Of a stretch of 64,000 bases of DNA, positions 51,046 to 63,948 are shown in pieces (within the stretch, counting starts at the first letter, position 1; the number at the start of each line of letters is the position of its first letter). This DNA comes from an uncultured Cytophagales bacterium. GTDB taxonomy: Bacteria; Bacteroidota; Bacteroidia; Cytophagales; Thermonemataceae. Under the pieces are notes generated by a model. That model was not told the DNA's origin. It worked only from the letters and a program-made list of their open reading frames with translations, and did no database searches. The position numbers and the translations under genes were made by a program. The stretch covers positions 186,001-250,000 of the forward strand of contig CALLAC010000001.1 in the NCBI GenBank assembly GCA_938002655.1. The letters run 5' to 3'.

Positions 51046-51127
51046 GCCTAGGTGGCGGAACTGGTAGACGCGTACGACTCAAAATCGTATGCCTTCGGGC
51101 GTGCCGGTTCGATTCCGGCCCTGGGTA
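51046..51127 (+). tRNA. tRNA-Leu (anticodon CAA)
   Basis: A class II tRNA with an extended variable arm. The acceptor GCCTAGG pairs with CCTGGGT including G-T positions. The anticodon CAA is at 51080-51082 in a TACGA/TCGTA stem. CCA is not encoded. Confidence 0.95.
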
Positions 51128-51135
51128 CATCAAAG

Positions 51136-51163
51136 AAGAGCCTTCAAAAATTAGAAGGCTTTT
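51136..51163. terminator. Hairpin after tRNA-Leu and the kinase gene
   Basis: A ten-base stem (51136-51145 with 51154-51163, one G-T) is followed by a T-rich stretch. It ends tRNA-Leu and overlaps the stop codon of the convergent kinase gene. Confidence 0.7.
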
Positions 51164-52316
51164 ATGTTTTACCTTTTATTCCAATTTTTAATCCTTTGCC
51201 TCGAAGTTTACTTTCGTTTATTGGCTCGCTTGCTTTCAATTTCGATTTGAGTACTTCAAGTTCTTTTTCAACTACATCCAAGGTAGATTCTTCGGAAATT
51301 TTTTTATCTTTCTTGCTGAAAGTCATTTTGAGCTTAGAACTTTTGCTTTCGTCTTCTTTTTTCTTTTTTTCTTCCCAATAGGCTTCTACAAAAGACTTTC
51401 TTTCAGAAACTTTGACTAGTTCATCCTCTTTGAAATCAAGATTTTTGAGTGTTTCAAAGATTTCTTCTGCGGTCGGGCGTTCGGTAGGAGAGGGGGCAAG
51501 CATAGCATTCACCATTTTTTTTAGCTTTTTGGGCAATTTGGCATCAACGAGTTTAAGTTCTTTACCCTCATTTACAGCAAGGCAAGGATAAGCATATTTT
51601 TTGGGGAACTCGGGAAGTTCGCCTTGTAAAAAAATGCAGTATAGTAAGCCCAAGGCAAAAATATCTGATTGTGTGCTTAAATTTTCAGGATTTTCTTTAC
51701 CTTGAATATAGCGAGCAAGTTCGGGAGAGTAAAAGACCATATCGCCAACCACTTCTTCGCTCAATTCGGGGGGGGCACCCGAAAAGTAGCTGTTATCAAA
51801 ATCAATTAGTTTGGTAGTATAATAATTCAGGCGAGTTTGCTTGATAAGTATATTTTCAGGCTTCAAATCGCCATGAACAATACCTGCTTTGTGTAAAATA
51901 TTGAGACTGTGAGATATAGTTTTGAGTATCAGAATTTTATTTGGTAAAGGAAGGGAATATACTTCTTTGGGAGAAAGAGAGGCTACATCAACTTTTTCAG
52001 TTACTTTGTAGTAAGTACTTCCTACGCGGAAAAAATCAAGGGTAACCACTAAATTTCCACCTACTCCACACCGCTCACTGATTTGCTTCATCAGCATTTT
52101 GTGGTGATTTTCAAACTTTTCACATGCTAATCTTTTGCGTTCTTTAGATTTTGGACTACCTGGTGAGGTTTCGGTGGGATATTTAGGCGAAAGAAATTCC
52201 TTGATGAAATACTCTTTTTCTCCTTTACGAGCGAAAGTCCATTTGCTTAATCCGCCGCCTGCGGTGGTAAAATCCTGTAAAATTTCATAGCCATTGATAA
52301 TTTCTCCTTTGAGCAT
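51162..52316 (-). CDS. Hanks-type serine/threonine protein kinase
   Basis: The 384-residue cytosolic kinase has the ATP Lys39 in EYFIKEF, an unusual Gly-rich loop TTAGGGLSKW (18-26), the catalytic loop VHGDLKPENIL with Asp150, Lys152 and Asn155 (HGD in place of HRD), and the metal motif IDFDNS with Asp172 (DFD in place of DFG). The lobe ends by about 290 (LAPSPTERPTAEEIFETL). The C-terminal 90 residues are charged and coiled, with no membrane helix or sensor domain. It is the last gene of the minus-strand run that begins with the SiaA-like phosphatase, and could phosphorylate the exporter or other products of that locus. Confidence 0.9.
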   Translation of the reverse strand: MLKGEIINGYEILQDFTTAGGGLSKWTFARKGEKEYFIKEFLSPKYPTETSPGSPKSKERKRLACEKFENHHKMLMKQISERCGVGGNLVVTLDFFRVGSTYYKVTEKVDVASLSPKEVYSLPLPNKILILKTISHSLNILHKAGIVHGDLKPENILIKQTRLNYYTTKLIDFDNSYFSGAPPELSEEVVGDMVFYSPELARYIQGKENPENLSTQSDIFALGLLYCIFLQGELPEFPKKYAYPCLAVNEGKELKLVDAKLPKKLKKMVNAMLAPSPTERPTAEEIFETLKNLDFKEDELVKVSERKSFVEAYWEEKKKKEDESKSSKLKMTFSKKDKKISEESTLDVVEKELEVLKSKLKASEPINESKLRGKGLKIGIKGKT

Positions 52317-52752: not shown

Positions 52753-52782
52753 AATTGTGCTTACTTAAAACCAAGCACAATT
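52753..52782 (-). terminator. Terminator after the second secreted-protein gene
   Basis: A ten-base stem (52753-52762 with 52773-52782) is followed on the minus strand by a run of eight T residues (52744-52751). It may only partly stop transcription into the membrane-protein/kinase pair. Confidence 0.75.
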
Positions 52783-52798
52783 TTGTACAAAAAAGATT

Positions 52799-53221
52799 TT
52801 ATCTTTTAAATCCTATTACGCTTGAGCCGCAATAGTCTTGACCTTCCTTAACTTCGTAGGCTAAATAGTATATGCCTGTACGTGAGCATTTTATATCGAT
52901 AGCAGGCATATATTTTTTTTCTTTTTCCAAATAGCTACTTGCTACGGGCTTTTTCTCAGAATCCATGAGCGTCACGAAAAGTCCTTTGTTGGCACTATTG
53001 GCAAGAGTAATACGATAACTGGTATTATTACTAAAAACGTAAGAATAAATAATCTGCTTTTTGCTGCCATTCATGAAATCTAGTTTATAGCTTTTGAGGT
53101 ATTTGAAACCATCGGGTTTAAGGCGTTCAGCACATTTGTTGGTATACTCTGTAACATCGCACTGGGCATTTGCAAGATATGCAAAGCTGAAAGCGAGGAG
53201 TAAAAACAATACCTTTTTCAT
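52799..53221 (-). CDS. Secreted protein B', paralogue of 54162-54713
   Basis: The 140-residue protein has a signal peptide ending NAQC. The mature part contains GFKYLKSYKLDF near 38, a strand-rich centre (YRITLANSANKGLFVTLMDS, in part, near 71), IDIKCSRTGIYYLAYEV near 108 and the end CGSSVIGFKR. Its paralogue B shares GYKFLRSYKLEG, IEITCTKTGVYKILFE and CGGAVISFKR. Four Cys are kept in both, suggesting disulfides. The beta-sandwich pattern resembles a carbohydrate-binding or pre-peptidase C-terminal type fold, but I cannot name a family. It has its own promoter. Confidence 0.8.
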   Translation of the reverse strand: MKKVLFLLLAFSFAYLANAQCDVTEYTNKCAERLKPDGFKYLKSYKLDFMNGSKKQIIYSYVFSNNTSYRITLANSANKGLFVTLMDSEKKPVASSYLEKEKKYMPAIDIKCSRTGIYYLAYEVKEGQDYCGSSVIGFKR

Positions 53222-53258
53222 ATATATTGTGTTTTTTGAGAGTTTCCAGTTTCGAGTT

Positions 53259-53289
53259 CAAAGGTAATAAAAAACATAATCAATGTCAA
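53259..53289 (-). promoter_or_regulatory. Promoter of the B' gene
   Basis: On the minus strand, ATTG (53286-53289) precedes TACCTTTG (53259-53266) by about 20 bases, with the ATG at 53221. Confidence 0.55.
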
Positions 53290-53307
53290 TATATCAAGCA
53301 ACAATTT

Positions 53308-54150
53308 TTAGCTTGTAATATGTTCTCTGATTTCTTTAAGAGTTTGTGAAAGTTTCTGAAAGTCTTCTTTACTCATATTTACTTTGCTAGATTTACCTTC
53401 TTGGGTTTCTACACTGATATTTTTGTAGCTTTCATTGATTTTCTGTAAATCATTGTAGAGCTTCTCAATATGTTTAGAAACAGACTTATTCGGTTCTAAT
53501 TCTTTCAAAATAACTTCTGCCACGAGCTTTTGGTCAGCGATTTTTTCATTTAGGGCAGGTTTATTGGCTTTTTCAGCAACTTGCGTAGCCAAATACAGAG
53601 ATTCTACCCAGCCTCCAATTACCATCAGGGTTAGCACTTCGCCACGTTTGTCTTCTTCCAATTTCTGACGCATAGCTGTTAGCCCTAAACCTGTGGTAAG
53701 GATAAGTTCGTTCATATCTTTGGTTTCTTGTGTAATTTTTTTGATTTTTTCAAAATCAAAAAATTGAGCAACTTTCAAACCTTCTGCCATTTTACGGGTA
53801 GCATCTAAAAATTTGATAGCATCTTGGGTTTTGTTATGTAAATTGGCGTAGCCTAAATCTACGCTATACACACCCAAATTTAGAGCCATTTGATGTTCGG
53901 TATTGTATTTTTCAATATTTTCAGGTTTGTTGAGCAAGCTATTGTCGTATTCTACTCCGGAGCTTTTGATGAGGTCAGTCATTTCAATAGGATTGGGCAT
54001 TGCATTGAGTAATTGGTAATCTGTTCTGAACTCCGTTTTAGTGTTATTTTGTTTTTGAGTAGTGTCTTGTGTAGGCTTTTGTTGATTGTCGTTTTTGGGA
54101 CAAGCCATCAAGATAATGGCAGACAGAGGAAGCCAAAAGATTTTTCTCAT
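53308..54150 (-). CDS. Lipoprotein A', paralogue of 54790-55686
   Basis: The 280-residue lipoprotein has the lipobox IILMAC (Cys16) and a Gln/Thr-rich linker to about residue 48. The all-helical body has conserved blocks ALNLGVYSVDLGYANLHNKTQDAI (in part, about 90), QFFDFEKIKKI and LMVIGGWVESLYLATQVAEK (in part, about 175). Its paralogue A shares each block. The family is unnamed to me. The gene starts 11 bases after the stop of secreted protein B, so B and A' are translated from one transcript. Confidence 0.8.
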   Translation of the reverse strand: MRKIFWLPLSAIILMACPKNDNQQKPTQDTTQKQNNTKTEFRTDYQLLNAMPNPIEMTDLIKSSGVEYDNSLLNKPENIEKYNTEHQMALNLGVYSVDLGYANLHNKTQDAIKFLDATRKMAEGLKVAQFFDFEKIKKITQETKDMNELILTTGLGLTAMRQKLEEDKRGEVLTLMVIGGWVESLYLATQVAEKANKPALNEKIADQKLVAEVILKELEPNKSVSKHIEKLYNDLQKINESYKNISVETQEGKSSKVNMSKEDFQKLSQTLKEIREHITS

Positions 54151-54161
54151 AAAAGTATTTT

Positions 54162-54713
54162 TTAACGTTTGAAACTTATAACAGCTCCGCCACAGAAATT
54201 TCGTTTATTGAAATAATGTTCAAACAAAATCTTGTAAACACCTGTTTTGGTACAGGTAATTTCTATGGACGAGTAAAACTTTTGCGTATCGGGGTCGTAA
54301 GAAGATGCTATAACTCTGCCTGTAGGATCGTACAAAGTCATTTTCAAATTACTACCTACATAAGATTCAGCTCTGATGAGATAATTTGTTCCTTTACTGA
54401 ATGTATATTCTTGTTGTATAGGATCATTCGAAGGACCTTCAAGTTTATAACTTCTTAAAAACTTGTATCCCGAATTTTTAAGTGCTTCAACAATATCTCT
54501 GATGTAAGCATTAGGATTACAATTTTCAATACGAGGATTAATCTCTTTTTTATTTGTTTGTTTTTTAGGATCGGTTTGGGTTTTGGTATCTTTTTGCGTT
54601 TGTATTTTCTGTTGAGGTTTGGTATTTTGTGGTGGGGTGGTAGTTTTCTGTTGAGCTAAACTTTTCCCTATTATTATCTCCATGAAAATCAGGATTATGC
54701 ACAAATTTTTCAT
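54162..54713 (-). CDS. Secreted protein B with Thr/Gln/Lys-rich linker
   Basis: The 183-residue protein has a signal peptide (about 1-20, ending SLAQ). A low-complexity linker rich in Gln, Thr, Lys and Pro follows (21-58). The B-type domain (about 62-183) is like that of 52799-53221. The linker is absent from B', so the two copies differ mainly there. Four Cys at corresponding positions are kept. A possible -7 box CAAATTTA lies at 54721-54728 on the minus strand just upstream. Confidence 0.8.
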   Translation of the reverse strand: MKNLCIILIFMEIIIGKSLAQQKTTTPPQNTKPQQKIQTQKDTKTQTDPKKQTNKKEINPRIENCNPNAYIRDIVEALKNSGYKFLRSYKLEGPSNDPIQQEYTFSKGTNYLIRAESYVGSNLKMTLYDPTGRVIASSYDPDTQKFYSSIEITCTKTGVYKILFEHYFNKRNFCGGAVISFKR

Positions 54714-54789
54714 AGGTCTTCAAATTTACTGTTGTCGAGGATAAAAGATTCTGCAAATAAGAAAGATTGAGAAACCTTTTAATAAAGTT

Positions 54790-55686
54790 TTAGCTAATAA
54801 CTTTATTACGAATAGCGGCAATCTTAGTAGTAATTTCGTTGAGGGTTTCTTTGCTCATTTCTGCTTGTTCACTACCACCTTGCTGAACAGCTATGGTACC
54901 TTCTTTTTCTTCTTGTTTGGTTTCTCCTTCGCTTTTGGTGAATTTGATTTTTTCGAAAGATTTTTGCAAGTCTACAAGTTCGTCATGTAAATCTCTCATT
55001 TTAGATTGACTAGCGTAATAATCAAGGAGTTGCACGATTTGTTCAAGTACGATTTTTTGGTCGGCAATCATTTGTTCTAGGTCTTTATTCGGCTTTTTTT
55101 GTACTACTTGGGTAGCCAAATACATTACTTCTATCCAACCACCTGCAATGATAAGTACAGTCAAATCGCTTCGGTCTTGTTCATAAAGTTTATTGTTGAT
55201 ATTGATTAAATTTTCTTCGGTAAGTTGTAAAAGTTCATCGAGTTTATCTTTGCTTTTAGAGAGTTGCTTGATTTTTTCAAACTCAAAATATTGACCAATT
55301 TTAAGGTTATCAGCCATATCTTTTACTCCTACAAGCAAATTGATAGCATCTTGTGATTTTTCGTAGATATTGGCATAACCCAAATCTGTACTGAATACAC
55401 CAAGATTAAGAGCTTGCTTAAACTCAATTACATATTTAGATTCGTTATCCACTGAATTTAATAGTCCTTGGTCATAATCAATACCACTATCTTTGATGAT
55501 GGAAGAGATAATCATAGGGCTAGGAATTCTATCTACAAACTCCTTGATAGTCTTTTTATCAATAGCTTCTTTGCCTGATTTTACTTTTTTAGTGGTATCG
55601 CTTGCTACTTTGTTAATATCGCTGTCATTATCACAAGCACTCAGTAAAAACATAAAAGTTAAAAAACTATAAACAATCTTTTTCAT
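54790..55686 (-). CDS. Lipoprotein A
   Basis: The 298-residue lipoprotein has the lipobox FLLSAC (Cys18) followed by acidic residues (DNDSD), a short linker, and the helical A-type body with ALNLGVFSTDLGYANIYEKSQDAI (in part), QYFEFEKIKQL and LIIAGGWIEVMYLATQVVQK (in part). The Asp-rich sequence after the Cys may act as a retention or surface-export signal. It lies directly downstream of the exporter gene (96 bases) and opens the A-B-A'-B' series. Confidence 0.8.
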   Translation of the reverse strand: MKKIVYSFLTFMFLLSACDNDSDINKVASDTTKKVKSGKEAIDKKTIKEFVDRIPSPMIISSIIKDSGIDYDQGLLNSVDNESKYVIEFKQALNLGVFSTDLGYANIYEKSQDAINLLVGVKDMADNLKIGQYFEFEKIKQLSKSKDKLDELLQLTEENLININNKLYEQDRSDLTVLIIAGGWIEVMYLATQVVQKKPNKDLEQMIADQKIVLEQIVQLLDYYASQSKMRDLHDELVDLQKSFEKIKFTKSEGETKQEEKEGTIAVQQGGSEQAEMSKETLNEITTKIAAIRNKVIS

Positions 55687-55782: not shown

Positions 55783-58700
55783 TCATTTTTTTGTTGCAAG
55801 CTTCTTTTTGAAAAAATTGAAGATCGATAGAGAAAGAGCTTTTTTGAATGTTTCGTAGTACAAAGTAACATACAATATTGCGGAAAAGAACCAGATTATC
55901 ATAATATCAAAATAATAAGTATTGATGAGCATACCTGCAAAATGCTTGGAGGGTGCAAGAAACTGCGTTCTGTAATCTAAGAAATGGGCAGGTAGCAAAG
56001 GTTCTTGGAAAATGGGATCGGCTTGTTGTAAGAGTTTTTCTTTGTAGAGTAAGATTTTGTCTCGTACATTAGCATTCCGAGCCAAATCGGATAGACTTTC
56101 GTTGAAGTAGGTATTTTTATATTTTTCTAAGGAATAGCCTTTGACTTTTTCTTCTAATCTATCTTCCAGATCGTTTTTCTCACGGCTGAAATAATTTCTC
56201 CGAGCTTTGTAATATTCTGATAATTCTTCTAAATAGGCTTTCAGTTCTGCTTCTACTTTTGAATTATAGGCATGGATATTGAGTTGGGAGAGCAAATTAT
56301 CAAAGTTTTTAAAGACAGGACGATTTTCTTTGCCATACTGAGTTTTCAGGTCGAAGGCTTTTTCTTTTTGTAATTCATAAACGATGAGTTTGAGTTCAGC
56401 GATTTTTATATTATTTAAAGAATCGGAGTTTTTATCTAAAATTTTAGAAAGCCTTACACGAGCATTGCCAAGTTCATCGAGCCATAATTGGCGAAAATCT
56501 GCAATACTGATTTCTTTTTCGTACTCAAAGAATGGTTTTTGGAATTTATTATTTTTGAATTGTTCTACGGCAATAGCTTCAAACCCCCAACGCGAAACCA
56601 TGAGGTCAGCCAATAGCGGAACTTGCCCTCTATCACTTACGAATTGATTGAGCTTATCAAAATTAAAAATTACACCGCTCAAAATCATTTGTGGAATAAG
56701 TAGCAAAGGAATAGTGATGTAAATAGTGACTACCGAGTTGAAAGTAGCAGAAATATTCAATCCGAGTATATTGGCAAAGCAAGAGACTGTGAAAAGTACT
56801 GCCCAATACATCATATTCATTCCTTTCACTTCAAGAATAGCATTACCAATAAGTACAAAAGAAAGTGTTTGAATAGCAGAAAGCCCGAAGAGAATAATCA
56901 GTTTGGAGAGTAAATAGCTATGCCTGCTCAAATTAAGAAAAGACTCTCGGCGTTGAATTTTTCGGTCTTTGATAATTTCTTCGGCACTTACGGTTAGACC
57001 CATAAAAAGAGCTACCAGCACACAGATAAGGATGTAAGCAGGGATATTGTCGTTGTAACGATAGCTATACCCCAGAGTAAGCGGGTCGTTATTGAATCGT
57101 ATAATAAAAGCAAGCAAAAAGGCAAGAAGAGGAGCTTCTAAAAGATTGATAATTATGTATTGCGTATTACCTGCTTTGGCTAGAAAATCGCGTATTGTGA
57201 AGAGAATGGTTTGTTTAGTCCAATGGGGTAAATCCAAAGCTTTGGGCGGAACTTCTCTTTGCTCTTCTACGGGGCGAATTTTATCGCTAAAGTTTTTCAA
57301 GAATAGTTCATGCCATTGGATAGGCGTTTTTTTGCGTTGGTTGGTATATTGTCCGCTTTCATCAATAGTACGAGCTTCAATAATATCAAAAATTTGTTCG
57401 GGGTTTACATTACCGCAATTGGGGCATTGCCCTTCTTCGGCTTTGAGTTGGTTGTCTTGTTTTTTGAAATAAATAACGGCATCAACGGGATTGCCATAGA
57501 AAACCTGATAACCTCCGGTATCCAGGATAATGAGTTTGTTAAACATTTTAAAGATATCCGAGGAGGGCTGATGGATTACAACGAAAATGAGTTTTCCTTT
57601 TGCAGAAAGTTCTTTGAGCAAATCAAGAACATTTTCGGAATCTTTCGAAGAAAGTCCAGAAGTGGGTTCATCAAGGAAAAGGACTGCGGGTTCGCGTATG
57701 AGCTCTAAGGCAATATTGAGGCGTTTGCGTTGCCCACCACTAATAGTTTTGTTGAGAACATTTCCTACTTTCAAATCTTTGATATGAGCAAGCCCTAAAT
57801 CTTCTAGGGTTTTCATTACTCGCTCGTGGAGCTCTTTTTCAGAAAAACTTTTAAAGCAAAGTTTGGTGTTGTAGTAAAGGTTTTGATAGACGGTCAGTTC
57901 TTCGATGAGCAAATCATCTTGAGCTACATAGCCGATAACTCCTTGTACTTTGTCTTTTTCTTTATGAATATCAATACCGTTGAGCAAAACTTGCCCTTTG
58001 GAGGGGGTTTCTAAGCCTGCCAATACATTAAGCAGAGTAGTTTTTCCTGCACCACTTGCCCCCATAATGCCAATAAGGTTGCCTGCACTTTCGGCTACGC
58101 TTACACCACGCAATCCTAAATTCCCATTTTTGAACTTGTATTCAATATTTATAGCATTGAAAGAAAGTTTTTGCTTTTTTTGAACATCTGTAAAATTAGC
58201 GATAATATCGCTGAAATAAAAAGAGTTACCTGCTTGTGTTCTGATAATACTGCCCGAAGTAAATTGGTAAATTTTGTTGGGCTTCATTAAAAAGTCGTTG
58301 AGCTTGATATTTTCGTTGCCTGTGTATTTTACAAAGTACATATGGGCTTCGGGCATACGCAAAAATATAAGCTCTCCGTCTAATCTTTCTACCTGAATAT
58401 GTTTGATGGTATTGGTACGAGGAATATACAGCGAACTAATTGTAAGGATATTTTCGTTACCCACGAGCTCATCAGCTTTCTTGAAGACAAAGTTGTAAAT
58501 AACTTTGAAAAGCTTTTCATTTTTGAGCAGGTAATCGGCAGAGGTTTGCACTACCTCCAAGCGTCTTTTAGTTACACGATTATCCGAAGCCAAAAGTTCG
58601 AGCATTCGTACTACAATGAGAATTTTTTGGCTCAGAACTAAACGGCTTTCTTTTTCGGGGGCAATTTCTTTGCGGAAAAGTCCGCCAAGTTTTACAGAAA

Positions 58701-58983
58701 ATTTTTGGAAAGCTCTTTCTTCGTCAGTTACTTTTTTACTACCTGTTTCTTCTTCGTTAGATAAGGTTTCTTTTTCGTTTTCGCTCACTCTTGCACCAAA
58801 ATCATTCCATAATTTGTGATAATATTCTCTGTATTTTTGCATATATGCTGGTATAGAGTCTTGGGCTAAAACTTCTTGGAAATATTCAGCGATGAAATTT
58901 TCTTCTTTGAAAGAAACACCTCCATCTTGTAAGACGGTAATAGCAAAAACTTTTGTGAGGGCTTCAAGTACAGCTTCGCTCAT
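55783..58983 (-). CDS. ABCG-type ABC exporter with extra N-terminal domains and a large predicted ectodomain
   Basis: The 1066-residue protein combines ATPase and permease. Residues 1-170 are helical and look TerB-like (ITVLQDGGVSFKEENFI). Residues about 178-265 are beta-rich (KLNDFLMKPNKIY, LTSG-like turns) and could be a degenerate FHA-like domain. The ATPase has Walker A GASGAGKTT (308-316), signature SGGQ (415-418), Walker B LFLDE (435-439) and switch His471. CPNCGN at 520-525 resembles half of a zinc ribbon. Membrane helices run from about 610 to 780. A roughly 230-residue charged helical segment then lies between the fifth and sixth helices, on the outer face in ABCG topology. The last helix is near 1030. 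Substrate unknown. Confidence 0.87.
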   Translation of the reverse strand: MSEAVLEALTKVFAITVLQDGGVSFKEENFIAEYFQEVLAQDSIPAYMQKYREYYHKLWNDFGARVSENEKETLSNEEETGSKKVTDEERAFQKFSVKLGGLFRKEIAPEKESRLVLSQKILIVVRMLELLASDNRVTKRRLEVVQTSADYLLKNEKLFKVIYNFVFKKADELVGNENILTISSLYIPRTNTIKHIQVERLDGELIFLRMPEAHMYFVKYTGNENIKLNDFLMKPNKIYQFTSGSIIRTQAGNSFYFSDIIANFTDVQKKQKLSFNAINIEYKFKNGNLGLRGVSVAESAGNLIGIMGASGAGKTTLLNVLAGLETPSKGQVLLNGIDIHKEKDKVQGVIGYVAQDDLLIEELTVYQNLYYNTKLCFKSFSEKELHERVMKTLEDLGLAHIKDLKVGNVLNKTISGGQRKRLNIALELIREPAVLFLDEPTSGLSSKDSENVLDLLKELSAKGKLIFVVIHQPSSDIFKMFNKLIILDTGGYQVFYGNPVDAVIYFKKQDNQLKAEEGQCPNCGNVNPEQIFDIIEARTIDESGQYTNQRKKTPIQWHELFLKNFSDKIRPVEEQREVPPKALDLPHWTKQTILFTIRDFLAKAGNTQYIIINLLEAPLLAFLLAFIIRFNNDPLTLGYSYRYNDNIPAYILICVLVALFMGLTVSAEEIIKDRKIQRRESFLNLSRHSYLLSKLIILFGLSAIQTLSFVLIGNAILEVKGMNMMYWAVLFTVSCFANILGLNISATFNSVVTIYITIPLLLIPQMILSGVIFNFDKLNQFVSDRGQVPLLADLMVSRWGFEAIAVEQFKNNKFQKPFFEYEKEISIADFRQLWLDELGNARVRLSKILDKNSDSLNNIKIAELKLIVYELQKEKAFDLKTQYGKENRPVFKNFDNLLSQLNIHAYNSKVEAELKAYLEELSEYYKARRNYFSREKNDLEDRLEEKVKGYSLEKYKNTYFNESLSDLARNANVRDKILLYKEKLLQQADPIFQEPLLPAHFLDYRTQFLAPSKHFAGMLINTYYFDIMIIWFFSAILYVTLYYETFKKALSLSIFNFFKKKLATKK

Positions 58984-59063
58984 ATATGCAGAAAATTATA
59001 ACAAAGTAATAGTGGAATTAAGCATTCACAAGACAAAAAGTAGATTTGTTTTAGAAAAAAAGC

Positions 59064-59089
59064 CTTATAGGCTTTCAAAAGCCTATAAG
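59064..59089. repeat. Nested palindromic element, variant copy G
   Basis: A 12-base perfect stem (59064-59075 with 59078-59089) has a two-base loop. The arm CTTATAGGCTTT is a variant of the family core. It lies within the SiaC-like/exporter gap, inside the presumed operon. Confidence 0.75.
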
Positions 59090-59098
59090 ATAAGAATT

Positions 59099-59464
59099 TT
59101 AGTAAGTTTTGAACTCAAAGGGCAGTCCATCTACAATATCTTGAAATTCTTTGCCAGCTTCTTCCATATCTTCGTCATCATCATGATGATACCAAATTAC
59201 TTTTGCACCATTGATGTTTTCAAGTTTAGTTAGTACATCAAGAATTACTTTGGAAGAGGCTGTGTTGAAATATTCTAGTTTGAAAGTAAAATTAGTTTCG
59301 GGATTGGGTGCGGCGGCGTATTTATCGAGCCAATCTAAAATTTGCTGATAGAAAGTTCTTACATCTTCGGGTAGTGAGCGTCCCGAAATTTCAAATATTC
59401 CATTATCTTTATCCAGAATTACTTTGGGTGTTTCTTCGGTTCCTTCTAAATTGATGATTTCCAT
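59099..59464 (-). CDS. SiaC-like regulatory phosphoprotein (DUF1987)
   Basis: The 121-residue protein matches the DUF1987/SiaC family. It begins with TPKVILDKDNGIFEISGRSLPED (in part, residues 12-34), continues with FTFKLEYFNTASSKVILDVL (in part, 59-78), and has WYHHDDDEDMEEAGKEF near 93. Thr68 in FNTASSK occupies the position that, as I recall, is phosphorylated in Pseudomonas SiaC by SiaB and dephosphorylated by SiaA; unphosphorylated SiaC activates the cyclase SiaD. No SiaD gene is present here. It follows the SiaB-like gene by 50 bases. Confidence 0.9.
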   Translation of the reverse strand: MEIINLEGTEETPKVILDKDNGIFEISGRSLPEDVRTFYQQILDWLDKYAAAPNPETNFTFKLEYFNTASSKVILDVLTKLENINGAKVIWYHHDDDEDMEEAGKEFQDIVDGLPFEFKTY

Positions 59465-59514: not shown

Positions 59515-60066
59515 TTATTCGCTACGAGGAACAACAATTTTCAGAGCAAAAAATGAGTATTCATCATTGATGGGTTCAAAACTATACCCTAGTTTTTCTC
59601 CTGATTTTCGTGCCATATCTACAAATCCTAGGCCAGCTCCTCCTTTATCAGAAATTTCGGTATTTTTGATAATTTCTTTGTAGAGGTCTTTCAAGCCATC
59701 TTTATCCAAGGAATTAACTCTTTCAATTTTAGCTTGTACAGCGGGGATAGCAGTATTACGAATAGGGTTGCCTGAGGTAACAATATATTCGTTGATTTGC
59801 TTTCCGAGCATAAAAATAGCATTGTTTTTTAAGCCGTCTTCGTCTTTTTCATTAAGTTCTTCGGAGTGTTTTACAATATTTTGCAAACATTCTACCATCA
59901 CACTGAAAACTTTTCTTTTTACTCCTCCAAGTTCGCCAATAGCATCCATATTTCGTTCTGCCATTGCCAAAATAGATTTGGTAATATCTTGGGTAAATTC
60001 GCCTTCGTATACCAAAATCAGATTATTGGCAATCATTGTTTTGTGCAGTTCATAAACATATTTCAT
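59515..60066 (-). CDS. SiaB-like protein kinase (HATPase fold, DUF6272)
   Basis: The 183-residue protein has a GHKL/HATPase-like fold: N-box VECLQNIVKHSEE with Glu59 and Asn63, and the ATP-lid glycines DKGGAGLGFVDMARKSG (about 140-155). There is no His-phosphotransfer or dimerisation domain, so it is not an ordinary histidine kinase. By analogy with SiaB it phosphorylates the downstream SiaC-like protein on Thr. All ATP-binding boxes look intact. It lies between the phosphatase and switch-protein genes, the order siaA-siaB-siaC. Confidence 0.9.
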   Translation of the reverse strand: MKYVYELHKTMIANNLILVYEGEFTQDITKSILAMAERNMDAIGELGGVKRKVFSVMVECLQNIVKHSEELNEKDEDGLKNNAIFMLGKQINEYIVTSGNPIRNTAIPAVQAKIERVNSLDKDGLKDLYKEIIKNTEISDKGGAGLGFVDMARKSGEKLGYSFEPINDEYSFFALKIVVPRSE

Positions 60067-60254: not shown

Positions 60255-63200
60255 CTAAAAGCGTATACCAATTACTAAAATATCATCAGTTTGTTTGATT
60301 GCATTTTTTTCATCGTCTGAACGCATCCATATTTTGAGTTCTTTTTCGAGGGCATCATTGAGAACCATCATAGGCTGATTCAGATTTGCTTTGATGATAT
60401 CTCGGATGCGTTTAGGTGAAAACTTGCGGTTATCGGGTCCGCCGAACTGGTCGGGCAAGCCATCCGAGAAAATGACAATCATATCACCCTCTTGGTAAGG
60501 TCTTTCATGATTGGTGAAAGCTCCTCTGTTTTTGTATTGCCCACCACCTACGGGCATTTTGTCGCCTTTGATTTCTTCTAATGGGTCTTCAATTTCGGGT
60601 TTGTGGGTATCTACATAATAAAGGGGTCTGTGAGCACCTGCATATTCTAAGATTTTCGTATCGAAATTGATTTTGCAAAGCGAGACGTCCATACCATCTT
60701 TACTGATAGCATCATCTTCGGTTTGTCTGAGGGTACGTACTACGGATTCATCGAGAATATCCAAAATTTCACTTGGCTTGAGCTTTTTGTTTTCTTCTGT
60801 GCTGAAGATATTGTTCAAGAGGAAATAACCAATGAGTGAAATCAAGGCACCGGGGACGCCGTGTCCTGTGCAGTCTACCACTGCTACAAATATGCCATTA
60901 TCGATTTTAAGCATCCAAGGGAAATCTCCACTTACAATGTCTTTGGGTTTGAACATTATGAAAGAGTCGGGGAATACACTTTGTAGCCAAGTGCTATCAG
61001 GCAAGATTGCACTTTGGATACGTTTGGCATAATTGATAGAGTCTGTAATTTTCTTATTAGCGGCGGCAATGATTTCTTTGTCTTCTTCGCTTTTGGTAAT
61101 ATCGTGAGAAACAAGGAGGAAGGTTTCAATTTCACCCATATCATTTCTTTCGGGAATGGCATTTACACTCATAATTTTACGTCCCTCTATGGTTTCAAAA
61201 TCAACTACACCGCTGGCTTTGGTTTCGCCACGAGTAATATTTCTTATCGAAGTTTCTATAAGTTTGAACCAGGCATTTAATACTTTTTGAGGGATATAAT
61301 CGGAAGTAATTTTTTTCTGCAAGAATTCTTCTTTGGGGTGTCCAGTAAGGCTTTCAATGATGGGATTTACGTAATAAACGGTTCCTTCTTTATCCATACG
61401 CAGGATAAGGTCGGCAGAGTTTTCGGAGAGAGCTTGCATTTGTCCGCGAAGACGTTGCTCACGTTCGGCTTCTTTTCGTGCTGTAATATCGCGGGCATTG
61501 ATAACAATACCCTGAATAGCAGGTTCATGAATTAGGTTACTACCTGTGGCTTCCATCCAAATGGTATGCCCGCTTTCAGTACGATATAGGTATTCAATAG
61601 CGGCGTGTCTTTCATCAGGGTATTCCAATAATTCTTGGAACAGTCTTTCAAAAGCTTCTTTTCCTTGTTCAATATTATCCCAATCGTTTCTGCCGAGCAG
61701 TTCATCGGCTTCAAATCCTAAGATTCTTCTTACAGAAGGGGAAGCATAGCGAATGGTTTTGTCGGGGTCGTAAATAATGATAACCTCCGATGAATTTTCA
61801 AGGAGAGCTTGTGTTTTGCGTTGTTCTTGTTTTACTTTTTCAATTTGCTCTTGGAGTTCTTGGTTGGCTTTTTCTACTTCTTCGTTTTTCTTAGCAAGTT
61901 CTTTGGCATTTTTCTCTAATTCTCTTTGGTTGGCTTGTAGCTCTTCGGTTAGTTTAGTTTGTTCTTTCAAAAGCAAATCGGTACGTTCTTTTACACTAAT
62001 ATTGAAAATGGTACGGGCGATACTATCGCTGATACGTGTAAGCAATTCATCTTCACGAGAGCCTTTGGGAATTTCTTCAAGAGCGGCAATTTCTAGAACA
62101 CCATATACTTCACGCGTATCGGCAGTGATAAAGGGAGATATGTGTAAGAATTTAGGTTTTTTTTCGCCTAAAAGTCCAGACGTAATAGTTACATAATCGT
62201 CAGGGATTTCGGTTCGTCGGATAGCTTCTTTTTCGATAGCGGCTTGCCCTACCAATCCTTCTGCGTAGCGATTTCTAAATACTTTGAAAGAAGCACTCAA
62301 ATATTTTTTCTTATTGTAAGCATGGCTGGCAATCATTACAAGTTCTTCTACGCCGGTAGCTTCGTTGCGTTTCATTTCATAGAAAGCACCTTGAATAGCA
62401 CCTACCTCACGTACTACATAAGCCAAGATTTTTTCAGCCATTACTTCCAGTTTATCGGTAGTACGCAAAATATCGTTGATTACATTGAGGCGTTCGTTCA
62501 CCCAAGCATTGATGTTGGCTTCTTCGGCAGAGCGTATCAAACTATTACGGGCATTTATCAGGGCGTTTCCGAGTACGTCTTTTTCACTCAAAGGTTTGAA
62601 ATCTACATCAAATTTTTGTGAACCAATATTTTGAGCGAAATTAGCGGTTTTTTCGAGGTTTTGCACTAATGCATTGATTTGTTCAGTCATTTCTCCGATT
62701 TCATCTTGGCTATTGGTTGTAACTATAGGGGGCAGTTCACCTCTTCCGAGCAAAGTGATAGTTCTACGCAAAACAGCTAGCGGGCGGGTAAGTAGTTGAG
62801 AAAAAAGTATTCCAATAACTACGGTAATTATAATTACTATGGCTCCAGCGATGAGAAATCTTCGGAGTAGAGCTACGGCAGGGGCATAAATTTCATCTTT
62901 ATCATTTTTCACCACCATTCCCCATTCTACTGCTGGAATGTAGCGAGAAACGGCTAAAAAGTCGGCTTCATCAATAGCTTCGGTATGTTTGGCATTTTTA
63001 TCCAGAGCTCTGCGAATGATGAAAGGTGTGTTTGCATCTTCTTTGTCACCGGCTTTATCTAATGATTTAATTTCTTTATTTTTTGCTTTGAAACTATTTA
63101 GATACACAAAACGACCTTCTTGCTCTTGTAAGAGCCATACTTGCCCTGTTTCGCCCAAGCCTACCTTATCGGAAACGAGCTTTTGTACCTTATCCATATC

Positions 63201-63920
63201 TACTTCGTAGATAAGCAGACCAACAAGCGGGTTTCCTGTGATGTCTTTGTCGCGGATAGGAGCAGATACCCAAAATACGGTTCTTTTTTCTTTGCCGAGT
63301 TGTTGTAAAGAAACTTTGCTAAAATAAGTAGTATCTCTACCTTTTACTACGATATCGGGATCTATGGGTGGAGTTCTAAATTTTTCATTCAAAGCCTGTT
63401 CGGGAGTAGAACGGCCAATATATCTTACTTTGCCATCTTTATCTAGCAAGTAAACGTTATTGAGTTTGTAAGCAAACTGAATAGCGATTACAGCGTTTTC
63501 CAACTCTACATTGATGGCAAAATCAGTAGAAGGCGTAGGATTATTTTGAGCATCTTGTCCTGTCTGTGTGGTATCTAATTGTTGCAGGTCTTGTGCAAAC
63601 AGGTTACCGAGTTCATTATCATCAGTCTTTTTTTCCTCAGTGATTTGAGAGGGCGAGTCAATTTTTTTGAGAAAATCTATAATTGGTTTCAAATCGCTAC
63701 CTACTTTTACGGCGGCATTGATTTCGTTGATAAAAGTTTGGATTTTTTCCACTTTCAAATCTGCAACCCCATTCAAAGATTGCAAGTAACGCTCTTCGAT
63801 GGAGTTTTTACTTTGGTTGTAGGCAAAAAAACTTACCGAAGCTACCGCTAAAAGCACTACCAGTAGCAAGATAAGCGAAATTTTTGCACCAATTTTGAGT
63901 TTTTTGAATAGGTTGAGCAT
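60255..63920 (-). CDS. SiaA-like sensor phosphatase (Cache-HAMP-GAF-PAS-PAS-SpoIIE/PP2C)
   Basis: The 1221-residue protein (ATG at 63918-63920; a GTG two codons earlier is possible) has TM1 at about 13-34. A periplasmic Cache-type sensor domain runs to about 345, TM2 to about 370 (AGAIVIIITVVIGILFS), and HAMP to about 430. A GAF domain covers about 475-640, a coiled coil to about 715, two PAS domains about 715-835 and 840-955, and the SpoIIE/PP2C domain about 960-1221. Metal Asp residues are in VAVVDCTGHG, VIFSDGLPDQ and QTDDILVIG, all present; the usual SGDFYW reads SGDFPW. It should dephosphorylate the SiaC-like protein in response to an outside signal plus cytosolic GAF/PAS inputs. Pseudomonas SiaA is shorter, without GAF/PAS. 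Confidence 0.9.
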   Translation of the reverse strand: MLNLFKKLKIGAKISLILLLVVLLAVASVSFFAYNQSKNSIEERYLQSLNGVADLKVEKIQTFINEINAAVKVGSDLKPIIDFLKKIDSPSQITEEKKTDDNELGNLFAQDLQQLDTTQTGQDAQNNPTPSTDFAINVELENAVIAIQFAYKLNNVYLLDKDGKVRYIGRSTPEQALNEKFRTPPIDPDIVVKGRDTTYFSKVSLQQLGKEKRTVFWVSAPIRDKDITGNPLVGLLIYEVDMDKVQKLVSDKVGLGETGQVWLLQEQEGRFVYLNSFKAKNKEIKSLDKAGDKEDANTPFIIRRALDKNAKHTEAIDEADFLAVSRYIPAVEWGMVVKNDKDEIYAPAVALLRRFLIAGAIVIIITVVIGILFSQLLTRPLAVLRRTITLLGRGELPPIVTTNSQDEIGEMTEQINALVQNLEKTANFAQNIGSQKFDVDFKPLSEKDVLGNALINARNSLIRSAEEANINAWVNERLNVINDILRTTDKLEVMAEKILAYVVREVGAIQGAFYEMKRNEATGVEELVMIASHAYNKKKYLSASFKVFRNRYAEGLVGQAAIEKEAIRRTEIPDDYVTITSGLLGEKKPKFLHISPFITADTREVYGVLEIAALEEIPKGSREDELLTRISDSIARTIFNISVKERTDLLLKEQTKLTEELQANQRELEKNAKELAKKNEEVEKANQELQEQIEKVKQEQRKTQALLENSSEVIIIYDPDKTIRYASPSVRRILGFEADELLGRNDWDNIEQGKEAFERLFQELLEYPDERHAAIEYLYRTESGHTIWMEATGSNLIHEPAIQGIVINARDITARKEAEREQRLRGQMQALSENSADLILRMDKEGTVYYVNPIIESLTGHPKEEFLQKKITSDYIPQKVLNAWFKLIETSIRNITRGETKASGVVDFETIEGRKIMSVNAIPERNDMGEIETFLLVSHDITKSEEDKEIIAAANKKITDSINYAKRIQSAILPDSTWLQSVFPDSFIMFKPKDIVSGDFPWMLKIDNGIFVAVVDCTGHGVPGALISLIGYFLLNNIFSTEENKKLKPSEILDILDESVVRTLRQTEDDAISKDGMDVSLCKINFDTKILEYAGAHRPLYYVDTHKPEIEDPLEEIKGDKMPVGGGQYKNRGAFTNHERPYQEGDMIVIFSDGLPDQFGGPDNRKFSPKRIRDIIKANLNQPMMVLNDALEKELKIWMRSDDEKNAIKQTDDILVIGIRF

Positions 63921-63948
63921 ACGCACCAGATTTTTGAGAAAAACTATT

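Follow-up and report, generated by a model that had tools for sequence, protein, structure and literature searches.

According to excerpts of two reports on Pseudomonas aeruginosa, the phosphatase SiaA and the kinase SiaB set the state of a threonine in SiaC, and it is SiaC without the phosphate that binds SiaD and activates it (PMC8457831, PMC7647112); one of these excerpts also suggests that SiaC-family proteins act generally on adjacent proteins (PMC8457831). In a second system, Rv1747/PknF of Mycobacterium tuberculosis, an ATP-binding cassette (ABC) exporter that has a regulatory part at its N terminus is tied to threonine phosphorylation, and excerpts of two papers propose Rv1747 as a carrier of phosphatidylinositol mannosides (PMC5549992, PMC3908365). 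Here we describe a locus with features of both, in a stretch of 64,000 nucleotides from an uncultured Cytophagales bacterium (hereafter the window; contig CALLAC010000001.1, positions 186,001 to 250,000). Like SiaABCD of P. aeruginosa, as far as the excerpts portray it (PMC7647112, PMC8457831), the locus codes for a sensor with a PP2C phosphatase, a SiaB-family kinase and a SiaC-family phosphoprotein with the threonine motif, beside a possible target gene. In P. aeruginosa this neighbour codes for the diguanylate cyclase SiaD, whereas here it codes for an ABCG-type exporter and is accompanied by two copies of a gene pair for a lipoprotein (A) and a secreted protein (B), and the SiaB and SiaC proteins of the window fall under the NCBIfam equivalog cut-offs. 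Unlike Rv1747, for which the excerpts give FHA domains and a Hanks kinase, the exporter here combines a TerB-related part with SiaA, SiaB and SiaC. No literature on a SiaC-linked exporter of Bacteroidota was found among open-licence PMC articles, which does not prove that there is none. The cluster is a variant of the SiaABC-type switch, with the exporter as its probable output. We propose that A and B serve on the envelope side as parts of an ABC exporter that SiaC gates, and that their tandem arose when the last two genes of the cluster were doubled within one lineage, a reading that we consider about equally likely to be right or wrong.

On the minus strand, four open reading frames (ORFs), taken with their translations from the ORF listing of the window, follow one another head to tail between 52799 and 55686 in the order A'-B'-A-B: A' (54790-55686; 298 amino acids), B' (54162-54713; 183 amino acids), A (53308-54150; 280 amino acids) and B (52799-53221; 140 amino acids). 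In pairwise protein searches, A and A' were 35% identical over almost their full length (E 3e-61) and B and B' 36% identical across about 120 residues (E 2e-21), similarities far above chance. Thus the tandem duplication that a preliminary description had read at exactly this position from the letters is borne out, and so are the common features it had listed: ALNLGV, DLGYAN, GGW and YLATQV in A and A' (some blocks with one or two changes), and SYKL, the cysteines and the CG..VI.FKR end in B and B'. Before its domain, B' carries a long Thr/Gln/Lys-rich linker of about 40 residues that has no counterpart in B. By eye, A and A' start with a lipobox, B and B' with an ordinary signal peptide. A' belongs to no named family (nothing significant in Pfam or NCBIfam). 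In the host genome (2.64 Mb in 44 contigs, 97.5% complete), two extra homologues of A were found on contigs C7 and C31, with unrelated neighbours and no B beside them; no third B was found there at a significant E-value (third match E 0.03), and a profile search also gave two matches.

The same A-B-A-B array was present in all eight genomes looked at in the family of the host, directly behind the exporter in seven of them and at the end of another contig in one draft (G005). In a tree of 41 A proteins, first and second copies separated with support of 99/97, and all 16 copies of the family lay on one side of a branch (98/95) with the 25 outsiders on the other; the tree was drawn with a midpoint root, the one-branch statement rests on a separate test, and one row was trimmed because its start was misplaced. 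For B, one old split was not rejected (p-value of the approximately unbiased test 0.41), B being too short to resolve. One duplication of the unit in the ancestor of the family is the simplest, if not a proven, reading: the preliminary claim that the pair was duplicated as a unit fits the tree of A, with its one old split, and is compatible with B, whose own tree does not resolve. Elsewhere A or B had been multiplied singly, as A-A-A-B (L054 and L063), A-A-B (L058), A-B-B (L067) and B-B (L073).

The order SiaA-like sensor, SiaB, SiaC, ABCG exporter, A and B recurs in many Bacteroidota. A single query sequence for each family, at E 1e-60 for the exporter and 1e-3 for A and for B, was used to scan 59 relatives: 40 genomes had A, the same 40 had the exporter, and the 36 with B were all among them. 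Across 148 genomes of the order, scanned with profiles for A and B at E 1e-5 and with the exporter at E 1e-100, A and the exporter again occupied the same 92 genomes; B occurred in 91 (seven of these calls, in one family of genomes, f9, were weak, with E 1e-10 to 6e-6), of which 89 were shared with A, leaving three genomes with A and no B and two with B and no A. In families f16 and f20, A and the exporter were both present in some genomes and both absent from others. In eight of the 40 relatives, both were kept without an A within 1.5 kb of an exporter match; some of these eight are fragmented drafts, and one (G016) is a single contig. Of 247 highly complete genomes sampled across the phylum, 5 had A, which is so absent from most of that sample. 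A scan of named genomes returned at least 580 confirmed relatives of A, and the loci of the best 80, many of them cut by contig ends, include Flammeovirga, Flexithrix, Fulvivirga, Persicobacter, Marinilabiliaceae and Chitinophagaceae bins: the exporter was present in 70, B in 75, the exporter with A and B in 65, SiaC in 57 and SiaB in 53. Since these named loci were fetched with A, they carry no information on how often A occurs.

At the level of neighbouring genes, the 59 relatives yielded 97 A, 56 B and 71 exporter matches (their loci were picked around matches; neighbour and gap counts include duplicates, and named loci and relatives' loci overlap in some genomes). An A lay within 1 kb on the same strand for 44 of the 56 B matches, and an exporter within 5 kb for 36; conversely, B lay within 1 kb of 43 of the 97 A matches and the exporter within 5 kb of 56. 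The gap from A to B had a median of 21 nucleotides, and none of 107 such gaps held a terminator-like site. Together with the shared 92 of 148 genomes, these counts support the earlier suggestion that A and B belong together and with the exporter, and the link to the exporter is well supported. The further expectation that A and B always form a pair fails: 54 of the 97 A matches had no B and 12 of the 56 B matches no A within 1 kb, so the two families are found apart in part, and two genomes, one of them complete, carry B alone. In these two, B stands without any A or exporter match (L195, 8814-9218, in the complete genome G366; L196, 3269-3724, in G331, an incomplete draft at 83%) and may have a role of its own.

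The position of A relative to the exporter falls into two arrangements. Among 44 close A-exporter pairs, A was downstream in 31 (30 with B near) and upstream in 13, none of which had a B match; in one of these 13 (L068), a profile search shows a B gene between A and the exporter. The upstream A adjoins the exporter even in the absence of Sia genes and B. The same family includes a second exporter type (L080-L090), which has A directly upstream and neither SiaB nor SiaC adjacent. Because A adjoins this second type, usually without B or Sia genes, A looks like the partner of the exporter and B like the partner of A. Further exporters (L075-L078 and L096-L098) had no A beside them. SiaC stood directly before the exporter in 54 of the 70 classified exporter neighbourhoods of the named loci (51 as SiaC-exporter-A, one with B and one with a split exporter) and in 21 of the 51 of the relatives.

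The exporter (55783-58983, minus strand; 1066 amino acids) has its ATPase (PF00005 at residues 291-442) before its ABC-2 membrane domain (PF01061 at 591-782), both above cut-off, which is the ABCG-type arrangement. Its N-terminal part is TerB-related by family: in 43 of the 45 members of this family there is a PF05099 match at E of 0.1 or below (best 1.1e-13), and the window exporter by itself gives no PF05099 match. Upstream of it on the same strand, the SiaC-family phosphoprotein (59099-59464) scored 135.2 bits against PF09345 (cut-off 24.5) and 69.5 of 150 against the SiaC equivalog model, with an N-T-A-S motif around the expected phospho-threonine; the motif was found by pattern in 67 of 70 exporter-adjacent SiaC proteins and by eye in one more, and the threonine is clearly absent in two. 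The SiaB-family protein kinase (59515-60066, minus strand) scored 179.2 bits against NF038262 (cut-off 85) and 81.1 of 225 against the SiaB equivalog model. The SiaA-like membrane sensor (60255-63926, minus strand) combines HAMP, PAS repeats, a sub-threshold GAF and a C-terminal SpoIIE/PP2C phosphatase, HAMP and SpoIIE being above cut-off in the domain search. Kinase, phosphoprotein and sensor of a SiaABC-type partner switch are thus all present. A GGDEF domain, as in a SiaD-type diguanylate cyclase, was not matched in the window proteins scanned; the rest of the host genome was not searched for it. In the loci of relatives from other families of the order, genes for a CheR methyltransferase and a CheB methylesterase precede the sensor genes in 14 of 64 (for example CheR in L045, 1738-2604, and CheB in L046, 15577-16194; one of each was above the Pfam cut-off), and the genus of the window has a GAF protein at this place.

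The model of A is almost all helical (mean predicted local distance difference test, pLDDT, 87.8; predicted template-modelling score, pTM, 0.82; 44 rows). No convincing structural relative of A was found with Foldseek (best E 0.31) or VIA (best Z 6.8, ordinary for helical models according to the note of the tool), and a comparison with PDB sequences gave nothing below E 0.044. A named family was also considered and rejected: the matches from family searches were scattered over one or few members each, several at the signal peptide. Across 44 A sequences, six columns do not vary (Tyr, Asn, Gly, Asp, Glu and Arg), and one might guess at a binding site from them. In excerpts of a study of Bacteroidota, the surface-export signal right after the lipid cysteine reads K-(D/E)2, Q-A-(D/E)2 or resembles SDDDD or SDDFE (PMC5080379). 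By our own patterns for lipobox and signal, and with a reference signal that may not be the one used in this order, 120 of 130 distinct A proteins carry a lipobox and two of these 120 a lipoprotein export signal (LES)-like sequence; the copies of the window have none. Because so few carry it, A more likely faces the periplasm than the cell surface, and the surface receptor considered in the preliminary description becomes less likely than a periplasm-facing partner.

The model of B is a beta-sandwich (pLDDT 89.5, pTM 0.80). Its nearest structures were PliG, PPC, collagen-binding and GOLD domains, with Foldseek E down to 2e-4 and best VIA Z of 9-10 over about 90-100 residues (root-mean-square deviation 2.4-3.9); the top Z of 10.1 is slightly over the 7 to 8 that the tool deems typical without a clear match. 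B resembles these domains in fold and differs from them in being a free single domain that reaches no family cut-off by sequence: for PPC (PF04151), B' scored 16.3 bits (cut-off 25.9), and 1 of 32 B members matched at E of 0.1 or below. A common fold gives B no shared function. Matches of B to PDB sequences, led by a C1q chain at E 0.005 with antibody chains next, were taken as chance. The idea that B is cargo of the type IX secretion system (T9SS) found no support: TIGR04183 gave weak matches to 4 of 32 members, the best at E 0.0067, PF18962 matched 3 of 32 (best E 0.0011), and among the 41 listed matches to the sorting domain in the host, 38 of them over cut-off, neither B gene appears.

The gene set, its order and recurrence, the matched distribution of A and the exporter and the doubling inside the family of the host are established by sequence comparison, and they suggest a relay. 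Judging from homology and position, the SiaA-like sensor and the SiaB kinase would set the phosphorylation of SiaC, and SiaC would then switch the exporter in the way that its P. aeruginosa counterpart switches SiaD, perhaps by acting on the N-terminal part of the exporter. A, lipid-anchored and probably periplasm-facing, would be the dedicated partner of the exporter, receiving or handing on its cargo, and soluble B a cofactor acting together with A, chiefly in the version with linked Sia genes; a signal would so pass through the state of SiaC to the exporter, which turns on or off, and the cargo to A and on to B or beyond. Known ABCG-type exporters transport lipids and small molecules, and by this analogy a lipid, glycolipid or similar cargo would be likelier than a folded protein. 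The second A-B pair, kept in all eight family genomes looked at, probably serves a second cargo or contact. A more specific version, in which SiaC binds the TerB-containing N-terminal part of the exporter in a phosphorylation-dependent manner and A and B, as new families, form a periplasmic relay, is tentative and more doubtful than the general proposal.

Several lines of evidence weigh against the proposal: i) A matches exceed exporter matches (97 vs 71), and 34 of the 97 lie near neither exporter nor B; ii) 28 of the 71 exporters have no A within 1.5 kb, against 43 that do; iii) linked genes are inherited together and the genomes are related, so the counts are not independent events and co-occurrence overstates the evidence; iv) not every A has the lipid anchor, the lipobox being absent by our pattern from 10 of the 130 distinct A proteins, Flammeovirga among them; v) a terminator-like hairpin splits the SiaC gene from the exporter gene in the window; and vi) profile tests gave no support for an FHA domain in the exporter through which SiaC might act. 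Such a domain was suspected before the ATPase from a conserved LNG ... GS.I pattern. No Pfam FHA match was found at E 0.1 among the 45 exporter family members in the families shown; the best PDB match was an FHA-containing kinase, weak at E 0.35; and hhalign of this part against 10 FHA rows was in register, but its E of 0.15 did not surpass that of decoys (0.076 for B), 13 of 24 rows with a stop on both strands having been left out and one noise row dropped.

The surplus of A, over 40 genomes, and its solitary copies would also fit an unlikely alternative, that the exporter, or a route it serves, moves A and B themselves outward, with the other A genes as further substrates; A is moreover multiplied in some clusters (A-A-A-B) and less conserved between families (identity about 30-38%) than the main-type exporter (about 47-57%). 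Against it, A and B have ordinary Sec-type signals, so that they would travel by the Sec and lipoprotein pathways, the known surface-export signal is rare in A, and known ABCG-type exporters move lipids and small molecules. More improbable still is a role of A and B as the input side, sensing an envelope ligand and relaying it to the SiaA-like sensor, with the exporter as output: the cluster does contain a membrane sensor, the fold of B is used elsewhere for binding too and A has invariant polar residues, but A is found with the second exporter type, which has no Sia genes beside it, and therefore follows the exporter, not the sensor. Equally improbable is a mere neighbourhood in which A and B are only co-transcribed with the exporter, since, for all that each also occurs alone and that the copies of the host on C7 and C31 lie among unrelated genes, A and the exporter occupy identical genomes, including families f16 and f20 where some lack both, and the order recurs in named genomes of several Bacteroidota groups.

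Terminator-like hairpins with a T run lie on the minus strand after B (52753-52782; z -3.05), the probable end of the transcription unit, and between the SiaC and exporter genes (59063-59090; z -3.50); the region holds 11 terminator-like sites vs 6.3 in shuffles (standard deviation 2.5), and these two have some of the longest stems. Because of the two hairpins, the exporter and both A-B pairs probably form a single transcription unit, which would be read from upstream or have its own start. Across the loci, 48 of 97 stretches after B held a terminator-like site, compared with 10 of 74 gaps between SiaC and exporter and 1 of 85 between exporter and A. Sigma-70-like promoter sites did not exceed the level of shuffles (27 vs 29.3). 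The motif TANNTTTG, which we take to be the Bacteroidota -7 promoter motif, was enriched in the window, counted over both strands (152 vs 92 expected), with TTTG 17-23 bases upstream in 17 vs 6.5 cases. It occurs in the A'-B' gap (54721) and in the A-B gap (53259); since such sites are frequent in the window, we make no promoter claim for either gap.

Beyond B, 3' of the cluster, lie a gene for a small membrane protein and then one for a Ser/Thr protein kinase (51162-52316). These two had 2 and 3 matches, respectively, in 64 loci of relatives, the window's own included, and they probably stand outside the transcription unit. PADLOC and NCBIfam defence-kinase models match the kinase below cut-off or as a generic kinase. 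An anti-phage defence role for the cluster was considered and rejected: PADLOC matched only the ATPase part of the exporter and the Ser/Thr kinase, and none of A, A', B, B', SiaB and SiaC. A tRNA-Leu (caa) gene lies at 51046-51128, between uvrC and the kinase gene; a 109-amino-acid ORF at 51052-51381 reads through it and was rejected as a gene.

The output worked out for the SiaC switch in Pseudomonas is a diguanylate cyclase, and here its neighbours are an exporter and two proteins of unnamed families. If the proposal is true, a SiaC-family switch would have an output independent of cyclic di-GMP synthesis, and Bacteroidota would have a defined gene set that turns a signal into export, with a likely job for the two unnamed families.

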